Assembly: GCF_010470675.1 (NCBI RefSeq)
Contig: NZ_VOIQ01000001.1
Coordinates: 186,001 to 250,000, forward strand
Direction: 5' to 3'
DNA from: Desulfovibrio sp. JC010
GTDB taxonomy: Bacteria; Desulfobacterota; Desulfovibrionia; Desulfovibrionales; Desulfovibrionaceae
DNA length: 64,000 nt
Positions 36,387 to 61,068 of this stretch are shown in pieces. The notes under the pieces were generated by a model, which ran no database searches, was not told the origin of the DNA, and saw only the letters and a list, made by a program, of their open reading frames with translations. Within the stretch, counting starts at the first letter, position 1; each line of letters starts with the position of its first letter. The translations under genes and the position numbers were made by a program.

Positions 36387-37436
36387 TTAAATCCCGACCT
36401 GAGCTTCCCAGTTGCGGGAATCCAGCTTCACACCGGAAGCACTGGCGATCAGGCATTCACTTTCTTTTTGCCCATTGATAAAGCGGAGAGCTTCCTTCGG
36501 ATTCATGGCAAATGCCGAAGTGGAAAGCGCGTCCGCCTCCATGACTGATGGAGCCACAACCGAAAGGCTGAGCTGGCAGCCATGGTGTGATGGAGCAAAA
36601 TGCGCGTTTTCAGGGTTTGGAACATGAAACCGGGTGCGCTCGGCATCAAAGTAGAATTCACTGCCGCCGGAAGTAGCTACAGCAGAGTCCTTAAGCCTGA
36701 TTACAGCCGGGAACCCTCCTTTACCGGAAAGGCTCTCAATGGCGACAATCCAAGGCTGCCCCGGAGCACGCTCACCACGGGCGCGGATATCCCCGCCTGC
36801 GGTGATCAGGTGGTTCTCCACGCCGAATTCAGCCATAAGGTCCGAAGCGCGGTCCACGATATATCCACGCCCGATGCCGTCAAGGGTCACGGACATGGAA
36901 CTTCTTTCAAAGCTGATTCCGCTCTTGGAAACATGGACAAAACCGGAACCGACAAGAGCCAGCGCATCATCGAGATCACTCTGGCTGAGCATCAGTCTTC
37001 CCTTGGGGGCACGGTTTTTCTGCAGCATTTCCAGTACAGGCAGCACAGTGGCATCGAATGTTCCGTTGGAGTGGTGATAGTAAGCCTGCGCTTTGCCCAT
37101 CACCTCAAGGAGTTCGGGAGCTACATCGCTCAGTTTTCCGGTTTCGTTAAGCTCGGAAACCGGAGTACCGGGCCGATGACGGTCAAAGATTGCGGTAAGA
37201 CGTTCCATCTCGCTGAAAGCCGAAGCCACAGCTGTTTCAGCCGCATCTTTGGAAAGGTGCAGGGCAACAACAGTGACCTGTGTTCCCATGAGAAAACGAC
37301 TGGCACTGATTTTATGTCTCCTGTCACCGATGCGCAAAGTATCGGCCAGTTTTAATGCCGCACCCAGCGGATGGGCAATAGAGGCCGCCTTTGCACCAAG
37401 TGATTGAACGAATGAACGTCTGACCGCATTTTCCAT
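36387..37436 (-). CDS. apbE: FAD:protein FMN transferase, last gene of the rnf operon
   Basis: A 349-residue ApbE-type enzyme that attaches FMN from FAD to a Thr in RnfG (and usually RnfD). Core motifs are FLMGTQVTVVALHLSKDAAE, FDRHRPGTPVSELNETG, YYHHSNGTFDATVLPVLEML, VTLDGIGRGYIVDRASDLMA with the flavin site, ENHLITAGGDIRARG, and the late SVMEADALSTSAFAMNPKEA. The N-terminus MENAVRRSFVQSL is twin-arginine-like but the hydrophobic part is weak, so export by Tat is only possible. It begins 11 bp after rnfB with AGGGA upstream. Placement at the end of rnf fits its role in maturing the complex. Confidence 0.94.
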   Translation of the reverse strand: MENAVRRSFVQSLGAKAASIAHPLGAALKLADTLRIGDRRHKISASRFLMGTQVTVVALHLSKDAAETAVASAFSEMERLTAIFDRHRPGTPVSELNETGKLSDVAPELLEVMGKAQAYYHHSNGTFDATVLPVLEMLQKNRAPKGRLMLSQSDLDDALALVGSGFVHVSKSGISFERSSMSVTLDGIGRGYIVDRASDLMAEFGVENHLITAGGDIRARGERAPGQPWIVAIESLSGKGGFPAVIRLKDSAVATSGGSEFYFDAERTRFHVPNPENAHFAPSHHGCQLSLSVVAPSVMEADALSTSAFAMNPKEALRFINGQKESECLIASASGVKLDSRNWEAQVGI

Positions 37437-37447
37437 GACTTAAGTCC

Positions 37448-39562
37448 CTATTCCTTGCCCAGCTCGCTGAACTTCTGCACGTCGGAATCCTGTGCGTATT
37501 CCGCACCGGCTTCGGCATCGTAGCAGGTCAGGCCACAGCGCAGGCAACGGCTGCCTTCCTTGCGGGCTGCTTCGTAGACAATGGAGCCCTTAACCTCTTC
37601 CTTGAATGTGGAACGGCGTTCTTCAACAGTGATCTCCGGAACGTTAATTCTGGGGATGGTGTAGGTAACGTCCATATTCTTGAGGATGGATTCGGGGATA
37701 ACGCGCAGCTGCGGGTTAACAGGCTCGGGGATCGCACCATCAGTGATAAAGTGATGGATTCCACGCGCTGCCATGCGTCCGTCAGCAACGGCCTGAATGA
37801 TAATGGAACGGCCTGTGTGCAGCTCGCCGCCAACGAAAACGCTGGGCACGCTAGTCTGCATGGAGGTCTTGTCGCAATCAATTCCGCCGGTCTTCTTGTT
37901 CAGCTTGAAGGGAATTTCACCTTCAGCATTCATGAACGGGGTCATGTCCGGCACACGGTCGGTGGCAATTACAATGAGGTCGGCATCAATGGTCTGCTCG
38001 GTACCTTCAACAGGCAGGGGTTCGCCAAGGGCCTTCTTGGGGTCCTTGTACTGTACTTCAATATATTCAACGCCTGTGACCTTGCCGTTTTCCGCGATAA
38101 AGCGGGAAGGCTTGGTCAGGAAGAGCAGCTCACTGCCCAGTTCGGAGGCGCGTTTAACTTCGTTCTTGTTGGCGGACATCTTACGCTGGATGCAGCCTAC
38201 GAGGGAGGTCACATCGCAACCGAGACGCGCGCCGCTGCGCACAACGTCCATGGCGGTGTTGGTATCGCCGATGACCACAACTTTCTTACCCTTGAGATCG
38301 TTGATGGATTTGCCTACTTCCTCAAGGAAAGTGACCGCGTCCATGACGCCTTCGGCATCTGCGTTCTCAAGCTCCAGAGCAGGAACTTTCCAGGCCCCGG
38401 TGGCAATGAATACAGCTTCATAGCCGTCACGCTCAAGTGTTTCAAAGGTGATATCCTTACCGAATTCAACACCGTTCTGCACCTCAACGCCGAGGTCGAG
38501 AATAGTCTGAACTTCCCAGTCCACTACCTTAGAAGGCAGACGGTATTCGGGAATAATACCCTTCATCATACCGCCGATCTCTTCACGCTTTTCAAAGATC
38601 ACGGGTTCATGACCGATACGGCGCAGGAAGTAGGCTGCGGAAAGACCTGCGGGACCACCGCCGATGATAGCCACTTTGTGACCGGACGGCGGGTTGCAGT
38701 TCAGGTTTACGCGGTTGCCGGAATTCATTTCCCAGTCAGCCACGAAACGGTGCAGGGTGTGGATGGCCACACCGTCGTCAGCGATGTTGCGGCGGCAGAT
38801 GGTTTCGCAGGGTGCGGGGCAGAGACGGCCCACAGCCAGCGGCAGCGGGTTGCGTTCCTTCATGGTCAGCAGTGCGCCGCGCATGTCGCCGTTTTTCATC
38901 TGGTTGATATAGGTACGGACGTCGATCTGGGCCGGGCATTTCTGCATGCACGGAGCCAGACAATCGTCGATTTTATTAAGATGGAGCAGGTCCATGGTCA
39001 TGCCGGACACACGGATAGCTCCGGTGGGGCAGACTTCAGCGCATTTACCGCAGGAAACGCAGGCGTTCATGTCTACAACAGGCACGCCCTCTTCGTTGAG
39101 GCGGATAGCGTCGAAACCGCAGACCTTTACGCAGGAACCGAGGCCGAGGCAGCCGAGACCGCAGGATTTTTCACCGCCGTAAAGCAGTGCTTCCGCGCGG
39201 CAGTCTTCAACACCTTCGTAATCGAAGAGCAGGTTCGCACGGGAACCGCCGGTGCAGATGTTGTTGGCAACCTTGGGTTCCTTGAAAGTAGCTTCAAGGC
39301 CCATGATAGACGCGATATTTTCAGCAATCTCAGGACCGCCGGCAACGCAGATTTCGGGAGCGGCTTCACCTTTTACAATTGCGCCTGCAGCAGCGTTACA
39401 ACCGGGGTAACCGCAGCCACCGCAGTTTGCGCCGGGAAAACATCCTTCGACTTCAGCGATGCGGGGATCTTCCTCCACATGCAGAACCTTGGATGCTGCA
39501 GCCAGTACGGCTGCGGCGGTTAGACCGAGCAGGAACAGGACCAGAATAGAAGAAGTAACCAT
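37448..39562 (-). CDS. rnfB: RnfB fused to a GltD-like flavin/pyridine-nucleotide oxidoreductase
   Basis: 704 residues against about 180-330 for ordinary RnfB. Residues 1-24 form a membrane anchor. Cys41, Cys47, Cys50 and Cys55 form the RnfB-specific 4Fe-4S site (NCGGCGYPGC). Two further cysteine quartets follow, 134/138/144/148 and 168/171/174/178 (CVSCGKCAEVCP). From about residue 200 the chain is a GltD-type module: six Cys for N-terminal clusters (CLAPCMQKCP, LCPAPCETICRR), an FAD site VAIIGGGPAGLSAAYFLRRI at about 297, and a second Rossmann segment VVVIGDTNTAMDVV at about 428. There GxGxxA is altered to GDTNTA and the NADP-type YRR motif of relatives is replaced by GCIQRKM. The C-terminal RCLRCGLTC resembles another cluster. 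Probably the electron entry subunit; AAGGAG precedes the ATG. Confidence 0.95.
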   Translation of the reverse strand: MVTSSILVLFLLGLTAAAVLAAASKVLHVEEDPRIAEVEGCFPGANCGGCGYPGCNAAAGAIVKGEAAPEICVAGGPEIAENIASIMGLEATFKEPKVANNICTGGSRANLLFDYEGVEDCRAEALLYGGEKSCGLGCLGLGSCVKVCGFDAIRLNEEGVPVVDMNACVSCGKCAEVCPTGAIRVSGMTMDLLHLNKIDDCLAPCMQKCPAQIDVRTYINQMKNGDMRGALLTMKERNPLPLAVGRLCPAPCETICRRNIADDGVAIHTLHRFVADWEMNSGNRVNLNCNPPSGHKVAIIGGGPAGLSAAYFLRRIGHEPVIFEKREEIGGMMKGIIPEYRLPSKVVDWEVQTILDLGVEVQNGVEFGKDITFETLERDGYEAVFIATGAWKVPALELENADAEGVMDAVTFLEEVGKSINDLKGKKVVVIGDTNTAMDVVRSGARLGCDVTSLVGCIQRKMSANKNEVKRASELGSELLFLTKPSRFIAENGKVTGVEYIEVQYKDPKKALGEPLPVEGTEQTIDADLIVIATDRVPDMTPFMNAEGEIPFKLNKKTGGIDCDKTSMQTSVPSVFVGGELHTGRSIIIQAVADGRMAARGIHHFITDGAIPEPVNPQLRVIPESILKNMDVTYTIPRINVPEITVEERRSTFKEEVKGSIVYEAARKEGSRCLRCGLTCYDAEAGAEYAQDSDVQKFSELGKE

Positions 39563-39589
39563 AACTAAATATTCTCCTTGCTTAACCTG

Positions 39590-40165
39590 TTAGGCAACCA
39601 TGCCCTTGAAGGCGAAAAAGATCAGGGACATGACTCCGGCAGTAATCAGGGCGATAGGCACGCCTCTGAAGACATGGGGAACCGGAGCAACGTCCAGACG
39701 CTCACGAATGGATGAGATAATGACCAGCGCGATGAGAAAACCGATACCGGAAGCCAGACCGTACATCATGGACTTCAGGAAAGAGTACTCATTGCGCTGA
39801 ACCATAATCGCTACACCGAGCACCGCGCAGTTGGTGGTGATCAGGGGCAGGAAGAGGCCCAGAGACTTGTACAGAGGCGGGATGACCTTTTTGAGGAACA
39901 TCTCGACAAACTGTACCAGTGAGGCGATGACCAGAATGAAGACAATGGTCTGCAGATACTCAATGCCGTAAGGGATGAGTATGAACTGGTGCAGGGGCCA
40001 GGTGATGGCGGTAGCCATCAGGGTAACAAATATAACTGCTCCACCCATTCCGAGCGCAACATCGGTGGACTTGGAGGTGCCCATGAAGGGACATGCGCCA
40101 AGGTACTGAACCAGTACGATGTTGTTGATGAAAATGGCGGAGATAAAAAGCAGAAAGTATTCCAT
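39590..40165 (-). CDS. rnfA: Rnf complex membrane subunit RnfA
   Basis: A 191-residue integral membrane protein with about six helices, homologous to NqrE. It starts MEYFLLFISAIFINNIVLVQ and has YLGACPFMGTSKSTDVALGM, LGLFLPLITTNCAVLGVAIM and the end VPIALITAGVMSLIFFAFKG. The conserved Cys in LGACPFMG and TTNCAVLG match the residues that hold the intramembrane Fe-S centre between NqrD and NqrE. It is 14 bp from rnfE, with GGGGAGAG before the ATG. It takes part in the redox-coupled ion pathway together with RnfE. Confidence 0.96.
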   Translation of the reverse strand: MEYFLLFISAIFINNIVLVQYLGACPFMGTSKSTDVALGMGGAVIFVTLMATAITWPLHQFILIPYGIEYLQTIVFILVIASLVQFVEMFLKKVIPPLYKSLGLFLPLITTNCAVLGVAIMVQRNEYSFLKSMMYGLASGIGFLIALVIISSIRERLDVAPVPHVFRGVPIALITAGVMSLIFFAFKGMVA

Positions 40166-40179
40166 TTTAACGCTCTCCC

Positions 40180-40866
40180 CTATTTATCCTTAAGATCTTG
40201 AATGCCGCCGCAGGCACCGCAATGTGCGCAGCCGGAGTTCATTACATCAGGTACGGTCTCGCCTTTCTTGCGGCTCTGGTATCTGTTGAAGGCGTTCATG
40301 CCCGCTAAGATGACACCGAGACCGACAAATGCGCCGGGGGCCATAACCATGAATTCAGCGGGCTGGAAGCTTTCCCACATGACCGGGACACCGAAAACGG
40401 TTCCGGCACCGAGGACTTCGCGCACAGCACCGAGAAAAGTCAGGGAGGCGGCAAAACCGATTCCCATGCCCAGTGCATCGGCAATGGAGAGGATTACTCC
40501 GTTCTTGGAAGCGAATGCTTCCGCACGCCCGAGGATCAGGCAGTTAACAACAATCAGCGGAACAAAAATGCCCAGCTTCTGGTAAAGCGGATATGCGTAG
40601 GCCTGCATGAGCAGCTCAACCGTAACAACCAGTGATGCGGTGATAACGATGAAGCAGGCGATACGTACTTTCGCGGGAATAATTTTTCTGATGCTGGAAA
40701 TGATCAGGTTGGACATGGTCAGAACAAAGATGACCGCCATACCCATGCCGAGGCCGTTCTCCGCAGAGGAAGTAACAGCCAGTACCGGGCACAGCCCCAG
40801 CAGAACCCTGAACGGAGGCAGCTCGTCCCAGAGTCCTTTTACGAATTCTTTTACTAAACGGCTCAT
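40180..40866 (-). CDS. rnfE: Rnf complex membrane subunit RnfE
   Basis: A 228-residue NqrD homologue with about six membrane helices. Typical stretches are FVKGLWDELPPFRVLLGLCP, LAVTSSAENGLGMGMAVIFV, LGIFVPLIVVNCLILGRAEA and ADALGMGIGFAASLTFLGAV. The Cys in LLGLCPVLAVT and VVNCLILG are the equivalents of those in RnfA. An added C-terminal tail (NSGCAHCGACGGIQDLKDK) carries three Cys in a CxxCxxC arrangement that enteric RnfE does not have, so a metal or extra redox site is possible. AAGGAG precedes the ATG. Confidence 0.95.
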   Translation of the reverse strand: MSRLVKEFVKGLWDELPPFRVLLGLCPVLAVTSSAENGLGMGMAVIFVLTMSNLIISSIRKIIPAKVRIACFIVITASLVVTVELLMQAYAYPLYQKLGIFVPLIVVNCLILGRAEAFASKNGVILSIADALGMGIGFAASLTFLGAVREVLGAGTVFGVPVMWESFQPAEFMVMAPGAFVGLGVILAGMNAFNRYQSRKKGETVPDVMNSGCAHCGACGGIQDLKDK

Positions 40867-40875
40867 GGTGTCTCC

Positions 40876-41445
40876 TTAAGAGTTCTTCCAGATGTTGGTG
40901 ATCTCAGGCTTGATGGACTGGTAGGTCTCGATGGCCTTGCGCACAGCGTCAACAGTACCCACGGAGGAGTAAGTCGCCCCGGCAATGGAGTCGATATCTC
41001 CGCCCTTCTTGGATACCTGCATGGAATCAAGACCGTGGCCTTTGAACTTATCGGTAAAAGACGGCTTCATAACCTTATCACCGAGACCGGGGGTCTCAGT
41101 CTGGGTGGTGATGCCGATGCCGATCAGCTGATCTTCATTAACATCAAAACCGACCATGACGCCGATGTCGCCGGAGTAACCGGGAGCAAAAGCTTCAAGA
41201 GCGATACCGACCAGCTTGCCGTCCTTCATGGCCGGGAAGACAGTCACGTCTTTTATTTTCACACGTTCTTTAATGGGATCGTTGTCACGATTCTCAAGTA
41301 CGGAGAGCAGCGCGGGACCCTGTACGTAAGTCAGGACCTGCTGTTCGATCTGGGATTTGGTGGCCTGCTTCAGGTTAACCAGCACCGCACCGGAAGTGGC
41401 ACAGATGATGGAGAGGACCACGAGCATATGAAGTATTTCGCGCAT
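40876..41445 (-). CDS. rnfG: Rnf complex flavoprotein subunit RnfG
   Basis: A 189-residue subunit with one N-terminal membrane helix (ILHMLVVLSIICATSGAVLV) and a periplasmic FMN_bind domain (GYSGDIGVMVGFDVNEDQLI, GIGITTQTETPGLGDKVMKP). The flavinylation motif SIAGATYSSVGTVDAV keeps the acceptor Thr of the S/A-G-A-T-x-S consensus, so ApbE can attach FMN by a phosphoester bond. It receives electrons on the periplasmic side, close to the pentaheme cytochrome. The gene lies 3 bp after rnfD, with GGAGG upstream. Confidence 0.95.
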   Translation of the reverse strand: MREILHMLVVLSIICATSGAVLVNLKQATKSQIEQQVLTYVQGPALLSVLENRDNDPIKERVKIKDVTVFPAMKDGKLVGIALEAFAPGYSGDIGVMVGFDVNEDQLIGIGITTQTETPGLGDKVMKPSFTDKFKGHGLDSMQVSKKGGDIDSIAGATYSSVGTVDAVRKAIETYQSIKPEITNIWKNS

Positions 41446-41448
41446 GAC

Positions 41449-42420
41449 TTACTTGCCTCCGAAAGGTTTGGGACGCACGCGGTCCAGCAGGGGGGTAAGC
41501 AGGTTTGCCACCATGATGGCAAAAGGCACGCCGTCGGGATAAACACCGTAAACCCGGATAATGATGACCATAGTTCCGGCAATGAGTCCGAAAAGGACCT
41601 GCGGAATGATTCCCACCGGGCTGGAAGCCACATCAGGAGCGAGGAAGAAAGCCCCGAACATCACTGATCCGGTCAGCAGATGGAAAAGCGGGTTGGCGTA
41701 TACTTCAGGATCAATCATCCAGAAGATGGTCGCGGTAACAGTCACACCCACGAGGAAAGCAGCGGGAATGAAAAAGCGCACCCATTTGGTGGCGATGAGG
41801 AAAATACCGCCCGCCAGCACAGCGATGATCTGGGAAGCACCCAGTCCGCCGAGCTGTTTGCCGAGAAACAGATCAGTATAATTGAACTGCTCAAGGGTAT
41901 CGAGACCGAAGAACTTGAGCTGGTCCAGAGGCGCGTTGATCATGAAATGGGCAAGGTTGGCGTCAATATCCATGGCGGCAGGCCAGGAAAGACGGCAGAA
42001 TGCCCATGCAACCAGAGGCGCACAGATGGGGTTGCAGCCGAAGCCGCCGAAAACAGTGCGGCCCATGACGATGGTCAGTGCTGCACCGCAGCCCACCATC
42101 CACCACGGCGCGCCCGCAGGCAGCAGGAAGGCGAAGAGAATGCCTTCATAAAGGGCGGTGTAGTTATCTACATTAATGTCCCGTTCCTGCCACTTGAGCA
42201 TGAGAGCTTCGGTAAGAACGGCAACCGCGCCGGCCATACCCACAGTAGCGAGGGCAGGCAGGCCGAACATATTGAAAGCCATGAGCAGAGCGGGAACCAG
42301 AGCCAGAAGATGATACTGCATCATCTTCTCCACGGTGCGCTTGCTGCGCCAGTGCGGAGCAGGGGAAACCGTGAGTCTGACCGCAATGTCGGACATTGCT
42401 TTAATTACTGGAGGAGTCAT
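41449..42420 (-). CDS. rnfD: Rnf complex membrane subunit RnfD
   Basis: A 323-residue NqrB-family membrane protein with about eight to ten helices. It begins with the usual cytosolic SPAPHWRSKRTVEKMMQYHL and has TEALMLKWQERDINVDNYTA, LLPAGAPWWMVGCGAALTIV with MGRTVFGGFGCNP, and the end VYPDGVPFAIMVANLLTPLL with DRVRPK. At the place where RnfD proteins normally carry the flavinylation motif (S/T-x-A-T-P-L) this protein reads MINAPLDQLKFFG, so the acceptor Thr appears to be missing. The preceding intergenic region contains two modular repeats. CAGGA precedes the ATG. Confidence 0.94.
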   Translation of the reverse strand: MTPPVIKAMSDIAVRLTVSPAPHWRSKRTVEKMMQYHLLALVPALLMAFNMFGLPALATVGMAGAVAVLTEALMLKWQERDINVDNYTALYEGILFAFLLPAGAPWWMVGCGAALTIVMGRTVFGGFGCNPICAPLVAWAFCRLSWPAAMDIDANLAHFMINAPLDQLKFFGLDTLEQFNYTDLFLGKQLGGLGASQIIAVLAGGIFLIATKWVRFFIPAAFLVGVTVTATIFWMIDPEVYANPLFHLLTGSVMFGAFFLAPDVASSPVGIIPQVLFGLIAGTMVIIIRVYGVYPDGVPFAIMVANLLTPLLDRVRPKPFGGK

Positions 42421-42527
42421 ATTTTAAATCCTGTATGATTATTCAATCAATCTAAGATGCCTTCGGCGACACACCAGGTCTCACTCATCCGTAAAACTCG
42501 AAGCAACGCTTCTCGGTAACGGCTGCG

Positions 42528-42599
42528 AGGCCTGCCGGGGGCCTCAAACCCTTTTCCAAAAGGGTTTAAGAATCCCAAAACGTTTTAGTAAGCTTCGCA
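42528..42599. repeat. Modular intergenic repeat, copy 6 (variant A), between rnfC and rnfD
   Basis: GGCCTGCCGGGGGCC box (as in copy 4), then AAACCCTTTT and AAAAGGGTTT arms around two bases (42546-42567), AAGAATCCCAAAACG and AAGCTTCG. It faces copy 7 in inverted orientation. The two together fill most of the 329-bp gap inside the rnf operon. Confidence 0.85.
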
Positions 42600-42631
42600 T
42601 CGGTATTTTGCTTACCGTCTGCGGAAACGAA

Positions 42632-42742
42632 GCGGCGAAGCCTTAATAAAAGTTTTTGAAGAGTTCAGAGAAACTTTTTTTCAAAAAGTTTCTTTGGCCG
42701 CCGGAGGCGAACTCAATTCATCCAAAGCGCGAAGCGCAACAA
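42632..42742. repeat. Modular intergenic repeat, copy 7 (variant B), between rnfC and rnfD
   Basis: CGGCGAAGCC, AGTTTTTGAAGAG, a hairpin with 11-bp arms AGAAACTTTTT and complement (42669-42693), GGCCGCCGGAGGCG, and AAAGCGCGAAGCGCAACAA, ending 7 bp from the rnfC stop. The outer boxes are those of variant A but the hairpin sequence is different. Confidence 0.88.
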
Positions 42743-42749
42743 ACTGCCT

Positions 42750-43895
42750 TTAACTCTTCTCAGCCTGACCGCTGGTACGCAGCTGATCTTTTGCAAAACG
42801 GATGTACTGCAGAATGGGTCGGCGCACGGTACAGTTGAAGGAGCAGAGACCGCATTCGAAACAGCTGTGCAGATTGTGCTTTTCAGCCATTTCAAACATC
42901 TCGTACTCAGCGTAACGGCTGAGCATGTTCGGCAAAATTCTTGCCGGACAGCTGAGCACGCATTCGCCGCAGTTGATGCAGGTTGCGTCTTCAATGGTGG
43001 GGAAGGTTCCGGCGGGAATTACGAACAACCCGTAATCGCCCTTCTTGACCCCTTCGTCGAGGCTGTAAACAGCTTCGCCGCGGAAAGGACCGTCCAGAAC
43101 GACCTTATCGCCGGACTTAACTTCAATGCCCAGTTCGTTGCAGATATGGCTGACGGGAGTTCCGAAGAGCACGCGGTAGTTGTTGTCGCCGATGGTCATG
43201 ATGGTATCGGTGACGGGCATGCCGGTTTCGTAGACCCTGCCGAGATTGTAGAGATCCATGACGCTGATCACTTTGGTGTCATCTGGAAATTCCTTTCCGG
43301 TGACTTTTTTGACCACAAGGGCGTCAAGGGAGTTGGGGTATTTGGGCTTTACGAAAACGCGCTCCGCTCCGGCCAGTTCGTAGTGTGAACCTGCGGCAAC
43401 AGCCAGAGTGGTGTGCACCGGGGTGATCAGCGTTTCAGCGAGGCGCAGGCCGGCTTCAATGGTTTCTTTCTCATCCTTAAGCAGCTGTTCAGCTACGGAG
43501 ATACCCGGCTCGGGGTTGAGTCCATTGATGACCAGATTGTCGGCATGGGAAGAAAGAACGGCGATGTTTACACCGAGCTCCTGCAGGGTGCGCAGAAGCT
43601 CTTTGCCCGGCCCCATGGATTTTACATCAATGGGTTCAACGGATTCTTCACCGCCGTCGGATTTGATGGTCAGGTGGTGGTAGTTGACTTTGGTGGCTTT
43701 ACCGGAAAGAGCCGCACTGCAGGCCGCACCGTATTTGGAAGGACGCTCGGCAAGCATTTCACCTGCGGCGAGCTTCTGGCCTTTCTTGATCTTCAGAATC
43801 TTGTTGCGCATGGAAATGTTGAGTTCCGCAGGCGCAGTGATGTCGGAAACAGTCTTCTGGACATCGGATTCGAGGGAATAATGTATTCTAAGCAT
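42750..43895 (-). CDS. rnfC: RnfC-type iron-sulfur subunit, without the usual NADH loop
   Basis: 381 residues, shorter than typical RnfC (about 440 or more). Present are a barrel-sandwich region (KILKIKKGQKLAAGEMLAER), the SLBB-like segment IGDNNYRVLFGTPVSHICNE, and two ferredoxin-type quartets near the C-terminus at Cys306/309/312/316 and Cys345/348/351/355. The glycine-rich GxGGAGFP loop that binds NADH/FMN in RnfC and NuoF is not seen; the corresponding stretch reads TLQELGVNIAVLSSHADNLV, followed by INGLNPEP where relatives have INGAECEP. The ATG at 43895 (MLRIHYSLESD) was chosen over a TTG at 43916 that overlaps the cytochrome stop. It lies 5 bp after the cytochrome gene. Confidence 0.93.
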   Translation of the reverse strand: MLRIHYSLESDVQKTVSDITAPAELNISMRNKILKIKKGQKLAAGEMLAERPSKYGAACSAALSGKATKVNYHHLTIKSDGGEESVEPIDVKSMGPGKELLRTLQELGVNIAVLSSHADNLVINGLNPEPGISVAEQLLKDEKETIEAGLRLAETLITPVHTTLAVAAGSHYELAGAERVFVKPKYPNSLDALVVKKVTGKEFPDDTKVISVMDLYNLGRVYETGMPVTDTIMTIGDNNYRVLFGTPVSHICNELGIEVKSGDKVVLDGPFRGEAVYSLDEGVKKGDYGLFVIPAGTFPTIEDATCINCGECVLSCPARILPNMLSRYAEYEMFEMAEKHNLHSCFECGLCSFNCTVRRPILQYIRFAKDQLRTSGQAEKS

Positions 43896-43900
43896 GGGAC

Positions 43901-44377
43901 CTACCTCGCATGGCAATCGTAACAGGAGTCTTCACCGTAGGGACCTCCGTCACTCTCGTGACAGTCCATGCACTGGGCGTGAAACGCTTCAGCGCGCAGG
44001 GGAATACTCTCGGTGTCAGGCTTGTCCTCTTCTGCGAGAGGACCGGAAGGAACATCATCGTGACAGCGCAGACACGCTTCTTCACTGGGGAAATTCTTCT
44101 GATGTTCTGCTCTGAACTTGGCGTCGAAAGCTACCGGGTGGCAGCTGCCGCAAGCAATGGGAGTCTCCTGCCCGATGTCATCATGGTGGCAGTCGGAACA
44201 TTCGTAGCCATACTCATCGGCATGGACAAAATGGGTAAAAATAACCCTGCCGCCGCTGTTGTCCAGAACAACACGGGCCGGATTTTCCTGCACTGCGGGC
44301 GGGAAAAGAAACCCGGCGACTGCCGCAACGGACAATACAGCAACAATTAAAGTTATTGGGATATATCTGTTCTTCAA
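43901..44377 (-). CDS. Membrane-anchored pentaheme cytochrome c at the head of the rnf operon
   Basis: 158 residues. An uncleaved N-terminal helix (ITLIVAVLSVAAVAGFLF) anchors it facing the periplasm. Five CxxCH motifs lie at residues 60-64, 76-80, 102-106, 136-140 and 152-156, and five other histidines (49, 52, 65, 92, 133) could give bis-His ligation of every heme. The size and THF/HxxC spacing resemble class III cytochromes but with one heme more. Co-transcription with rnfC suggests it exchanges electrons between the periplasmic cytochrome pool and Rnf, probably through RnfG. The frame has no ATG start; I chose TTG at 44377 (MKNRYIPIT) with AAGGATT upstream. A TTG at 44407 is the alternative. 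Confidence 0.9.
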   Translation of the reverse strand: MKNRYIPITLIVAVLSVAAVAGFLFPPAVQENPARVVLDNSGGRVIFTHFVHADEYGYECSDCHHDDIGQETPIACGSCHPVAFDAKFRAEHQKNFPSEEACLRCHDDVPSGPLAEEDKPDTESIPLRAEAFHAQCMDCHESDGGPYGEDSCYDCHAR

Positions 44378-44608
44378 CGGATCAATCCTTAATTTAGAAA
44401 GATTCAAGATTAAGGCACTAAGGCCGGAAACTACCGATTAGAAGCAATACCTATGCATCAATTTGCAGTTTCATCCTCCGGTAAATCTTTAAAAAGTGTA
44501 TGGAACCCTCTATCCACAGCCTAGGAAAGATTCATTCCGCCCCGCCACTCCGCTTTCCACGCCCTTTGGGATAGGACGCGCATTGAAAACGGAAGTTGCG
44601 AAGCGACT

Positions 44609-59844: not shown

Positions 59845-61068
59845 TTACAAACCTTCCACATAATCCATAATAGCCTGTGCTGAATTCTTGGAACAGCGCA
59901 CGGCTTCGGCAACGGTTCTGGCTCCGGTGACCACATCCCCGGAAGCGAAGATGCCTTCACGGGTGGTGCGTCCTTCCTCGTCGGTGATAACCAGTCCGGT
60001 CTTGCCGATCTCGATGCCGGTCAGGTTATTGCGCGGGGCCTGACTTACGGCGATAAAAACGGAATCAGCCTGTTCCAGCTTTTCCGAACCTTCCACGCTG
60101 GCCAGCATGATTTTTCCGTCTTCACCTTCCTGCTTTTCAGTACGGATGCAGAGCACGCCCTCCTCGGTGAGCTCCAGCGGGGAATGGAAAAACTTAAAAC
60201 GGACCCCGTCCAGCTTGGCGTAATCATACTCATACTTGGTAGCGGACATATCTTCCTGACCGCGGCGGTAAAGCACGGTAACTTCATCGGCTCCCTTGCG
60301 CAGGGCAGTTCGGGCCACATCCATGGCCACGTTCCCGGCCCCGATGACCGCCACTTTTTTGCCCAGCTGGTAGACGTCGGGATTCTTCAGATAATTGATA
60401 GCGTAATGCACATTGCCGAGGGTTTCACCCTTGAGCCGCAGGGGGCGCGGATTCCAGACCCCGGTGCCGATGAAAATGGCCTTGTAGCCGTCACGCAGCA
60501 GATCGTCGAGGGAGATAACCGGACCGATGAGCATGTTGGGCCGGATTTTAACGCCCAGCTGCAGCAACACATCACGCAGTTTTTCAAGGATATCCTTGGG
60601 CAGCCGGAATTCCGGGATGCCGTATTGCAGAACCCCGCCGATCTTGTCTTCGGATTCGAAGATGGTCACCTCATACCCTTTCAGGGCGAGGATGAAGGCC
60701 ACAGTAATCCCGGCCGGACCGGACCCGACCACAGCGATGCGGGCTTTACGTTTTTCCACCTTCTGCGGCTGAAACTGGTCCAGATAGTAGCGGGAAATGT
60801 AGTTTTCAATATCGCTGCACTGCACCGGGGAACTCTTACGGCCCAGGATGCAATGCCCTTCACAGAAATTTTCATGGGGGCAGATAAGCGAACAGACCAC
60901 GGAAAGCGGGTTGTTCTCAAAAAGCATAGCTCCGGCCTGCTGCATTTTGCCGTCCAGCAGGAGTTCGATCATTTTATTAATAGGTGTGCCGAGCGGACAC
61001 CCCTTGCTGCAAAGCGGTTTCTTGCATTGCAGGCAACGGGTCGCCTCTTCAATGATGTGTTTTCCCAT
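59845..61068 (-). CDS. Standalone GltD-like NAD(P)H oxidoreductase (glutamate synthase small-subunit type)
   Basis: 407 residues. The N-terminal Fe-S part has ATRCLQCKKPLCSKGCPLGT and VVCSLICPHENFCEGHC. The FAD domain begins ARIAVVGSGPAGITVAFILA and the NADP domain KKVAVIGAGNVAMDVARTAL, with the classical VLYRRGQEDMSA motif, then GIFASGDVVTGARTVAEAV at the FAD-closing site. No large subunit (GltB) or NfnA partner is adjacent, so it may be a subunit of an Nfn- or GltA-type complex encoded elsewhere, or act alone. It is a paralogue of the C-terminal module of RnfB in this window. The ATG at 61068 has no strong Shine-Dalgarno. Confidence 0.9.
   Translation of the reverse strand: MGKHIIEEATRCLQCKKPLCSKGCPLGTPINKMIELLLDGKMQQAGAMLFENNPLSVVCSLICPHENFCEGHCILGRKSSPVQCSDIENYISRYYLDQFQPQKVEKRKARIAVVGSGPAGITVAFILALKGYEVTIFESEDKIGGVLQYGIPEFRLPKDILEKLRDVLLQLGVKIRPNMLIGPVISLDDLLRDGYKAIFIGTGVWNPRPLRLKGETLGNVHYAINYLKNPDVYQLGKKVAVIGAGNVAMDVARTALRKGADEVTVLYRRGQEDMSATKYEYDYAKLDGVRFKFFHSPLELTEEGVLCIRTEKQEGEDGKIMLASVEGSEKLEQADSVFIAVSQAPRNNLTGIEIGKTGLVITDEEGRTTREGIFASGDVVTGARTVAEAVRCSKNSAQAIMDYVEGL

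Follow-up and report, generated by a model that had tools for sequence, protein, structure and literature searches.

A cytochrome-associated Rnf operon of Desulfovibrio sp. JC010 with a loopless RnfC and a rewritten NAD(P) motif in a fused RnfB

The window analyzed in this work is a stretch of 64,000 nucleotides from Desulfovibrio sp. JC010 (contig NZ_VOIQ01000001.1, positions 186,001 to 250,000). It contains an operon for an Rnf complex in which RnfC has no loop for flavin mononucleotide (FMN) and NADH, the reduced form of nicotinamide adenine dinucleotide (NAD), and in which RnfB is fused to a GltD-like module with a motif for flavin adenine dinucleotide (FAD). The features are listed in Table 1. 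The first gene of the operon encodes a pentaheme cytochrome and is separated from rnfC by 5 bp. The membrane core of canonical Rnf (Rnf1), composed of RnfA, RnfD, RnfE and RnfG, is present according to the Pfam matches and the cysteines of RnfA and RnfE. The strict S/TGAT pattern was not found in the RnfG translation, where the corresponding stretch reads DSIAGAT. A Pfam scan of eight operon proteins found neither NqrF nor a further flavoprotein subunit among them. An earlier note on this DNA had given the correct coordinates for rnfB and rnfC, both of which start with ATG.

Table 1. Features of the rnf operon in the window (aa, amino acids; C, cysteine; H, histidine; x, any residue).
Feature	Coordinates	Strand	Remarks
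class III-type cytochrome c	43901..44407	-	5 CxxCH, hydrophobic N-terminal stretch; Pfam Cytochrom_CIII 2.2e-9
rnfC	42750..43895	-	381 aa, ATG start, loopless
missing FMN/NADH loop site in RnfC	43530..43575	-	residues 108-122; 12-residue deletion relative to E. coli RsxC
RnfC 2x[4Fe-4S] ferredoxin domain	42831..42980	-	Cys 306-355 retained
rnfD	41449..42420	-	NQR2_RnfD_RnfE 7.3e-89
rnfG (FMN_bind)	40876..41445	-	Pfam match
rnfE	40180..40866	-	Rnf-Nqr 9.2e-64; Cys26 and Cys109 present
rnfA	39590..40165	-	Rnf-Nqr 6.4e-60; Cys25 and Cys113 present
rnfB fused to GltD-like module	37448..39562	-	704 aa, ATG start
genuine RnfB part (transmembrane helix, FeS domain, ferredoxin domain)	38978..39562	-	residues 1-195; Pfam FeS and Fer4
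GltD/NfnABC-like module	37448..38977	-	RnfB residues 196-704
FAD-binding GxGxxG of module	38645..38662	-	residues 301-306
rewritten NAD(P) Rossmann motif (GDTNTA ... CIQRKM)	38153..38293	-	residues 424-470
apbE/rnfF, flavin transferase family	36387..37436	-	ApbE 1.4e-56; 11 bp downstream of rnfB

At the loop site, LGVNIAVLSSHADNLV stands in RnfC of the window in place of the GLGGAGFPTGVK of E. coli RsxC. Three further stretches that are kept in loop-bearing RnfC proteins, ECEPY, E-x-NK and YPxGxExQL, are all replaced. We therefore rejected an alignment slip as the cause of the missing loop, since RnfC lacks four separate motifs while its Fe-S cysteines remain in register. The cluster cysteines are invariant in an alignment of 46 sequences (alignment A2), and 153 of the 154 loopless loci surveyed below retain all eight; in the remaining one, L034, RnfC is split. 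The model TIGR01945 aligned to the protein only from its position 153 and scored 149.5 bits (cut-off 245.95). With Pfam, Complex1_51K reached 17.2 of the 31.2 bits required, only Fer4_10 exceeded its own cut-off, and no SLBB match was listed at E 0.01. The sequence thus indicates that the FMN/NADH site of this RnfC is lost and that both sets of [4Fe-4S] cysteines are kept. The earlier note had described an RnfC without a GxGGAGFP-type loop; the deletion, the three replaced motifs and the low TIGR01945 score all confirm this.

RnfB of the window consists of two parts. Pfam placed FeS at residues 43–73, Fer4_20 at 202–281 and Pyr_redox_2 at 296–592, and the PDB matches 9eri_B and 7zc6_B fall within residues 6–190. 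A paper from 2024 (PMC11434368) noticed the fused gene in Desulfovibrionaceae and read it as loss of rnfB together with a new FAD-dependent oxidoreductase. We reject this reading, because residues 1–195 are an RnfB by both the Pfam and the PDB matches. The remainder shares the FAD-binding Rossmann motif and the Fe-S ligands with NfnABC, StnABC and GltD; G301, G303 and G306 occur without exception in the 40 fused RnfB sequences that were aligned, and nearly all Fe-S cysteines are invariant as well across the three classes described below. The module differs from these enzymes in being fused behind a membrane-anchored RnfB and in its second Rossmann motif, where GDTNTA and CIQRKM replace GGGNTA and YRR; the relative 5jca_L, which was solved with bound NADP(H), has an intact GGGNTAMD...YRRTRKEM. 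The GltD module had previously been called complete. That description is right for its fold, FAD motif and Fe-S ligands and wrong for the site of NAD or its phosphate (NAD(P)). A stand-alone GltD/NfnB-like protein of 407 residues, encoded at 59845–61068 on the reverse strand of the window, has an essentially intact motif (GAGNVAMD...YRR); its gene adjoins an alcohol-dehydrogenase-like gene (neighbor named by eye).

The nearest solved folds of the FAD module are subunits of the bifurcating enzymes NfnABC and StnABC. This would suit a module that acts as a bifurcating or confurcating entry, as in Nfn and Stn, through which ferredoxin and another cytoplasmic couple would be connected to the membrane chain, with RnfC as a second cytoplasmic exit; the retention of the RnfC clusters despite the loss of the FMN motifs points the same way. 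The eight operon proteins include no further flavoprotein subunit, which speaks against such an arrangement, and we regard it as improbable.

The second Rossmann motif divides the fused RnfB proteins into three classes (counted as distinct loci): a YRR class with GGGNTA and YRR (38), an RKM class in which a rewritten form, for example GDTNTA or GGSNTA, precedes the RKM motif (40, including the window), and a degenerate class in which the NAD(P) motif is lost (8, six of them inspected in the alignment). The first two classes were compared for positions that are fixed to 95% or more in the YRR class and retained by no more than 10% of the RKM class. This yielded 27 positions, 17 of which lie in the 117-residue NAD(P) subdomain (residues 419–535), among them G434, the second glycine of GxGxxA, as well as R512 and R513. 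Position 434 is glycine in all 38 YRR-class sequences and threonine or serine in all 40 RKM-class sequences. The presence of Y455, R456 and R457 among the 27 is circular, since YRR defined the class; that of G434, R512 and R513 is not. The window copy has lost the second glycine of GxGxxA, YRR and GRR. The alteration pointed out in the earlier note (GDTNTA, GCIQRKM) is therefore real, and it is conserved over the RKM class.

A second rnf operon is located on contig 9 of the same genome (locus L009). It encodes a decaheme cytochrome (10 CxxCH in 248 residues), a loopless RnfC of 391 residues and a fused RnfB of 702 residues in which GGGNTA and YRR are intact. Each of the 16 genomes of the genus contains an RnfD that is 48–51% identical to that of the window, and 14 of them contain in addition one that is at least 77% identical. 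Four members of the 48–51% group were fetched (L054–L057); their RnfD is 69–84% identical to that of the contig-9 operon. The heme number of the cytochrome also goes with the class. Among the RKM loci it is 5 in 39 of 40, the remaining one (L075) showing no cytochrome in a stretch that starts at a contig end; the 38 YRR loci have 10 hemes in 29 cases, 11 in three, 8 in two, 5 in three and none in one.

The existence of a paralogous operon with intact motifs might suggest that the window operon is a degenerating duplicate without a distinct function. The ratio of nonsynonymous to synonymous substitution rates (dN/dS), calculated within the genus for 13 genomes, contradicts this. For residues 424–470 its median is 0.051 (range 0.013–0.144), with 44 of 78 pairs usable and dS near saturation; for the other five, larger parts of RnfB the medians are 0.020–0.091, so that all six lie at 0.02–0.09. 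The rewritten NAD(P) motif is held by purifying selection and is not decaying. Together with the window-type RnfD in 14 of the 16 genomes and the conservation of the rewritten motif over 40 distinct loci, this leads us to reject decay of the window copy as very improbable.

To relate loop loss to fusion we used RnfD as an anchor, which is blind to both traits; ranking by similarity to the window RnfD favors its kin. In the order Desulfovibrionales 146 of 247 genomes had an RnfD match, and 60 operon regions were chosen from the matches listed. All 60 are loopless, as are the window and the second operon (62 of 62 in this first survey), and in seven of the 60 regions RnfB is unfused and 289–332 residues long. 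We added 80 named loci and E. coli, together with 40 regions and two short loci from a search across the phylum, in which 111 of 296 genomes matched. From 175 loci with RnfC and RnfD, 168 were distinct and 166 had a readable loop state (two were dropped): 154 loopless and 12 loop-bearing. L161 and L187 retain a remnant LGGNG and were scored as loopless.

RnfB of the 154 loopless loci belongs to the RKM class in 40 cases, the YRR class in 38 and the degenerate class in 8; it is a broken fusion in 2 and unfused in 39, including L173, where rnfB and rnfC lie on opposite strands. In the remainder it is cut at its 3' end (3), not seen (23) or partial (1). The 12 loop-bearing loci have an unfused RnfB (9) or one that was not seen (3), and 20 of 20 extra control operons from the strongest TIGR01945 scorers are loop-bearing and unfused. 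Loop-bearing loci were chosen by TIGR01945 score and the RnfD-anchored set by similarity to the window RnfD; neither sample is random. The fusion is seen only in loopless complexes, yet the loop can be lost without it, as the ordinary RnfB of 39 of the 154 loopless loci shows. A strict linkage of the two traits is rejected on the same count. The earlier idea that a module has moved from RnfC to RnfB consequently survives in part: the RnfC site is lost, an FAD module has been gained by RnfB and the fusion was seen only with loopless RnfC proteins, but the two events are separable.

The multiheme cytochrome is a better partner of loop loss than the RnfB fusion. An open reading frame with at least four CxxCH motifs on the same strand is found in 135 of 154 loopless loci and in none of the 12 loop-bearing ones; the loop-bearing locus L195 has a six-heme frame on the other strand. 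The 20 extra loop-bearing controls contain no multiheme frame on either strand.

Several loci deserve separate mention. In three deltaproteobacterial metagenome-assembled genomes (L132, L133, L135) RnfB is fused and an 11-heme cytochrome lies downstream, not upstream, of the operon. The fused rnfB genes of L106, L113 and L130 appear to be broken into at least two frames. Four RnfC-like proteins of Ruminococcus (L142, L145, L146, L150) adjoin an RnfD-like gene and are loopless; no RnfB was seen in the fetched stretches. At eight loop-bearing loci (L193, L196, L206, L211, L212, L214, L216, L218) a separate GltD-like gene (467–682 residues) was the next one picked up after rnfE.

The survey also bears on the suggestion of the earlier note that RnfB, through its GltD module, has taken over from RnfC as the point of NAD(P)H entry. 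Such an input swap would resemble the one proposed for the origin of Na+-NQR from Rnf, with NqrA free of cofactors and NADH input at NqrF. Among solved structures, those closest to the module belong to enzymes of the NADP(H) type, the YRR class (which includes the second operon of this genome) keeps the complete signature, and a scenario leading from RnfC to NqrA has been published (PMC4014512). The window operon differs from Na+-NQR in that RnfC keeps eight cysteines for both [4Fe-4S] clusters, the RnfB part is retained and no NqrF is seen. The signature residues are replaced in the window copy, the motif is lost in the separate degenerate class (8 loci) too, and the loop has disappeared in 39 distinct loci with an unfused RnfB. 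For the window operon we consider NAD(P)H entry at RnfB unlikely; the proposal fits the contig-9 operon better. Compared with GltD and Nfn, the window copy keeps the FAD motif and the fold and has the NADP(H) motif of 5jca_L replaced.

Canonical-looking RnfC, judged by score, exists in the order but is rare. TIGR01945 matched 160 of the 247 genomes at E 1e-20 and exceeded its cut-off in seven (by score: G001, G023, G031, G032, G041, G046, G047); a complete absence of canonical RnfC from Desulfovibrionales is therefore not upheld. G046 and G047 belong to the family of the window and have an RnfC of 505 and 504 bits, respectively, in addition to a loopless type (locus L052 is from G046). They probably contain a canonical Rnf1 beside Rnf2, the type described below. 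A stand-alone RnfC-like protein from the family of the window, without RnfD beside it (L185, genome G080), reads GAGGAGLPTHVK. Proteins of this kind probably account for many of the TIGR01945 matches of 190–227 bits in the order; one such protein was read.

Trees were calculated for the concatenated RnfD, RnfE and RnfA (74 representatives at 80% identity), for the GltD module and for the N-terminal part of RnfB. The core tree contains a clade of 60 rows (Shimodaira–Hasegawa-like approximate likelihood ratio test, SH-aLRT, 100) that is wholly loopless and includes both fused and unfused kinds. A second, small loopless group of 5 rows stands among loop-bearing rows, and the loop state changed at least twice. 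The six changes of the fusion state counted on this tree are too many, because L106 and L113 were labeled unfused though they are merely broken fusions, and RnfB of L124, L128 and L101 is cut by contig ends. A test of independent pairs had too few informative pairs. In the GltD-module tree the 36 fused modules group together (SH-aLRT 90), and the RKM class is a subgroup of 9 among them (SH-aLRT 100) on a long stem of 0.63; the separate GltD-like genes of the eight loop-bearing loci do not join the fused modules. Three of the four rows from the own genome (L201–L203) are wrong reading frames and uninformative. The tree of the N-terminal part has one group of 40 rows (97), made up of 38 fused or broken-fused rows plus the contig-cut L124 and L128. 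A second group (99) gathers 17 unfused rows, most of which come from family f3 or from loci named Desulfovibrio or Mailhella. The core tree nests these 17 among fused lineages. The simplest account is that rnfB was fused once and was later lost or replaced in the 17-row group; short-search trees cannot settle this.

The gap of 329 bp between rnfC and rnfD (42440–42740) is a multicopy intergenic repeat with palindromes (AAACCCTTTTGGAAAAGGGTTT). It has 47 matches in its own genome, itself included, and occurs at four places within the window. The contig-9 operon has no such gap. A scan for Rex sites upstream of the pentaheme cytochrome gave a best candidate with three mismatches, without a chance expectation.

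The layout itself is already in print as Rnf2, which answers the earlier question whether the fusion had been described. It was reported for Desulfobacula toluolica and Desulfococcus multivorans as the Tol2-type or Rnf2 of Desulfobacteraceae (PMC5109826). In the D. toluolica complex RnfB is about 700 residues long and has NAD-binding sites, and RnfC is without NADH and SLBB domains. D. multivorans possesses two complexes, one per type, and the rnf2 cluster includes a cytochrome. Genome G383 fits this description: about 18 kb separate its loop-bearing, unfused locus L192 from L168, which is loopless and fused. The window operon resembles this type in the added flavin module of its RnfB (Pyr_redox_2 and Fer4_20), its RnfC without NADH and SLBB domains and its cytochrome c gene. 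With regard to the NAD-binding site the window copy keeps the fold and has the motif replaced, whereas the motif of the second operon is intact. PMC11887813, which names the layout Rnf2, gives Rnf1 as the type of Desulfovibrionaceae; here all 60 RnfD-anchored regions are loopless and two genomes of the family exceed the TIGR01945 cut-off. Canonical Rnf1 (A. woodii, C. tetanomorphum, A. vinelandii) has in common with the window operon the RnfA, D, E and G core, the N-terminal RnfB, the RnfC fold and the Fe-S cysteines, and differs in the FMN/NADH loop and TIGR01945 score of RnfC, the RnfB fusion and the operon cytochrome. No report of the rewritten NAD(P) site, its conservation, the paired operons or the separation of loop loss from fusion was found in the available parts of the literature searched.

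In canonical Rnf electrons pass from ferredoxin to RnfB, RnfA/E, RnfG, RnfD, the RnfC clusters, FMN and finally NAD+ (PMC12174285, PMC9588780). In the window operon the final step is missing, and the electron path that leads to it is retained. Rnf of sulfate reducers has been treated accordingly as a ferredoxin:NAD+ oxidoreductase (PMC4841214, PMC4215793), and attempts to demonstrate this activity in D. alaskensis vesicles failed (PMC4841214). Based on the sequence comparisons we propose that the window operon encodes an Rnf2-type, cytochrome-linked ion pump that would use a protein carrier and not NAD(H) on its cytoplasmic side; we estimate the probability of this at roughly one half, an estimate that is based on the motifs of the window copy and is not altered by the rare RnfC proteins of the order above the TIGR01945 cut-off. 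RnfB would be the point of entry or exit for low-potential electrons, carried by ferredoxin or by another protein of the cytoplasm. A protein carrier such as ferredoxin is the likelier partner because the NAD(P) site of RnfB is rewritten. FAD would act inside the electron chain of RnfB. The electrons would then cross the RnfA/E–G–D core, coupled to ion translocation, and be exchanged with the periplasmic pentaheme cytochrome instead of NAD(H), with exit or entry near RnfG, as has been proposed for M. acetivorans (PMC4023990). The RnfC clusters could possibly exchange electrons with a further cytoplasmic partner.

Rnf of M. acetivorans, whose operon also has a multiheme cytochrome, works with it and without NAD(P) (PMC4023990), which favors a cytochrome-linked pump. 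No fused RnfB is mentioned in the available text of that paper, and the RnfC there is above the TIGR01945 cut-off, so independence of NAD does not require loop loss and the parallel is weak. Other points also count against the proposal. Lost motifs are no proof of lost binding, and a non-standard binding of NADH is possible; for 19 of the 154 loopless loci the fetched stretch shows no multiheme cytochrome of this kind, which in at least one case is explained by a contig end at its start; and in D. alaskensis fitness was hardly affected by the operon cytochrome (PMC4215793).

In the contig-9 type, RnfB would most naturally be assigned a function with NADP(H). That operon probably represents an NADP(H)-using Rnf2 pump and the window operon probably a pyridine-nucleotide-independent one, so that the organism would have two specialized versions. 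In its full form, which we advance tentatively and with a little less confidence than the cytochrome-linked pump as such, the window Rnf2 would have abandoned both the NADH site of RnfC and the NADP(H) site of RnfB and kept FAD, the Fe-S clusters and the pentaheme cytochrome. The complex would then pump ions between a protein carrier of the cytoplasm and the pool of periplasmic cytochromes, the FAD module would serve as an internal electron gate, and the sister operon would do the NADP(H)-linked job.

Should the NADH site of RnfC be absent from most Rnf complexes of Desulfovibrionales, and should one large class lack such a site in RnfB too, the energy balance of these organisms would change: it would run from ferredoxin to cytochrome c rather than from ferredoxin to NADH. 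The paired operons, with an intact and a rewritten NADP(H) site in one genome, offer a direct genetic and biochemical test.

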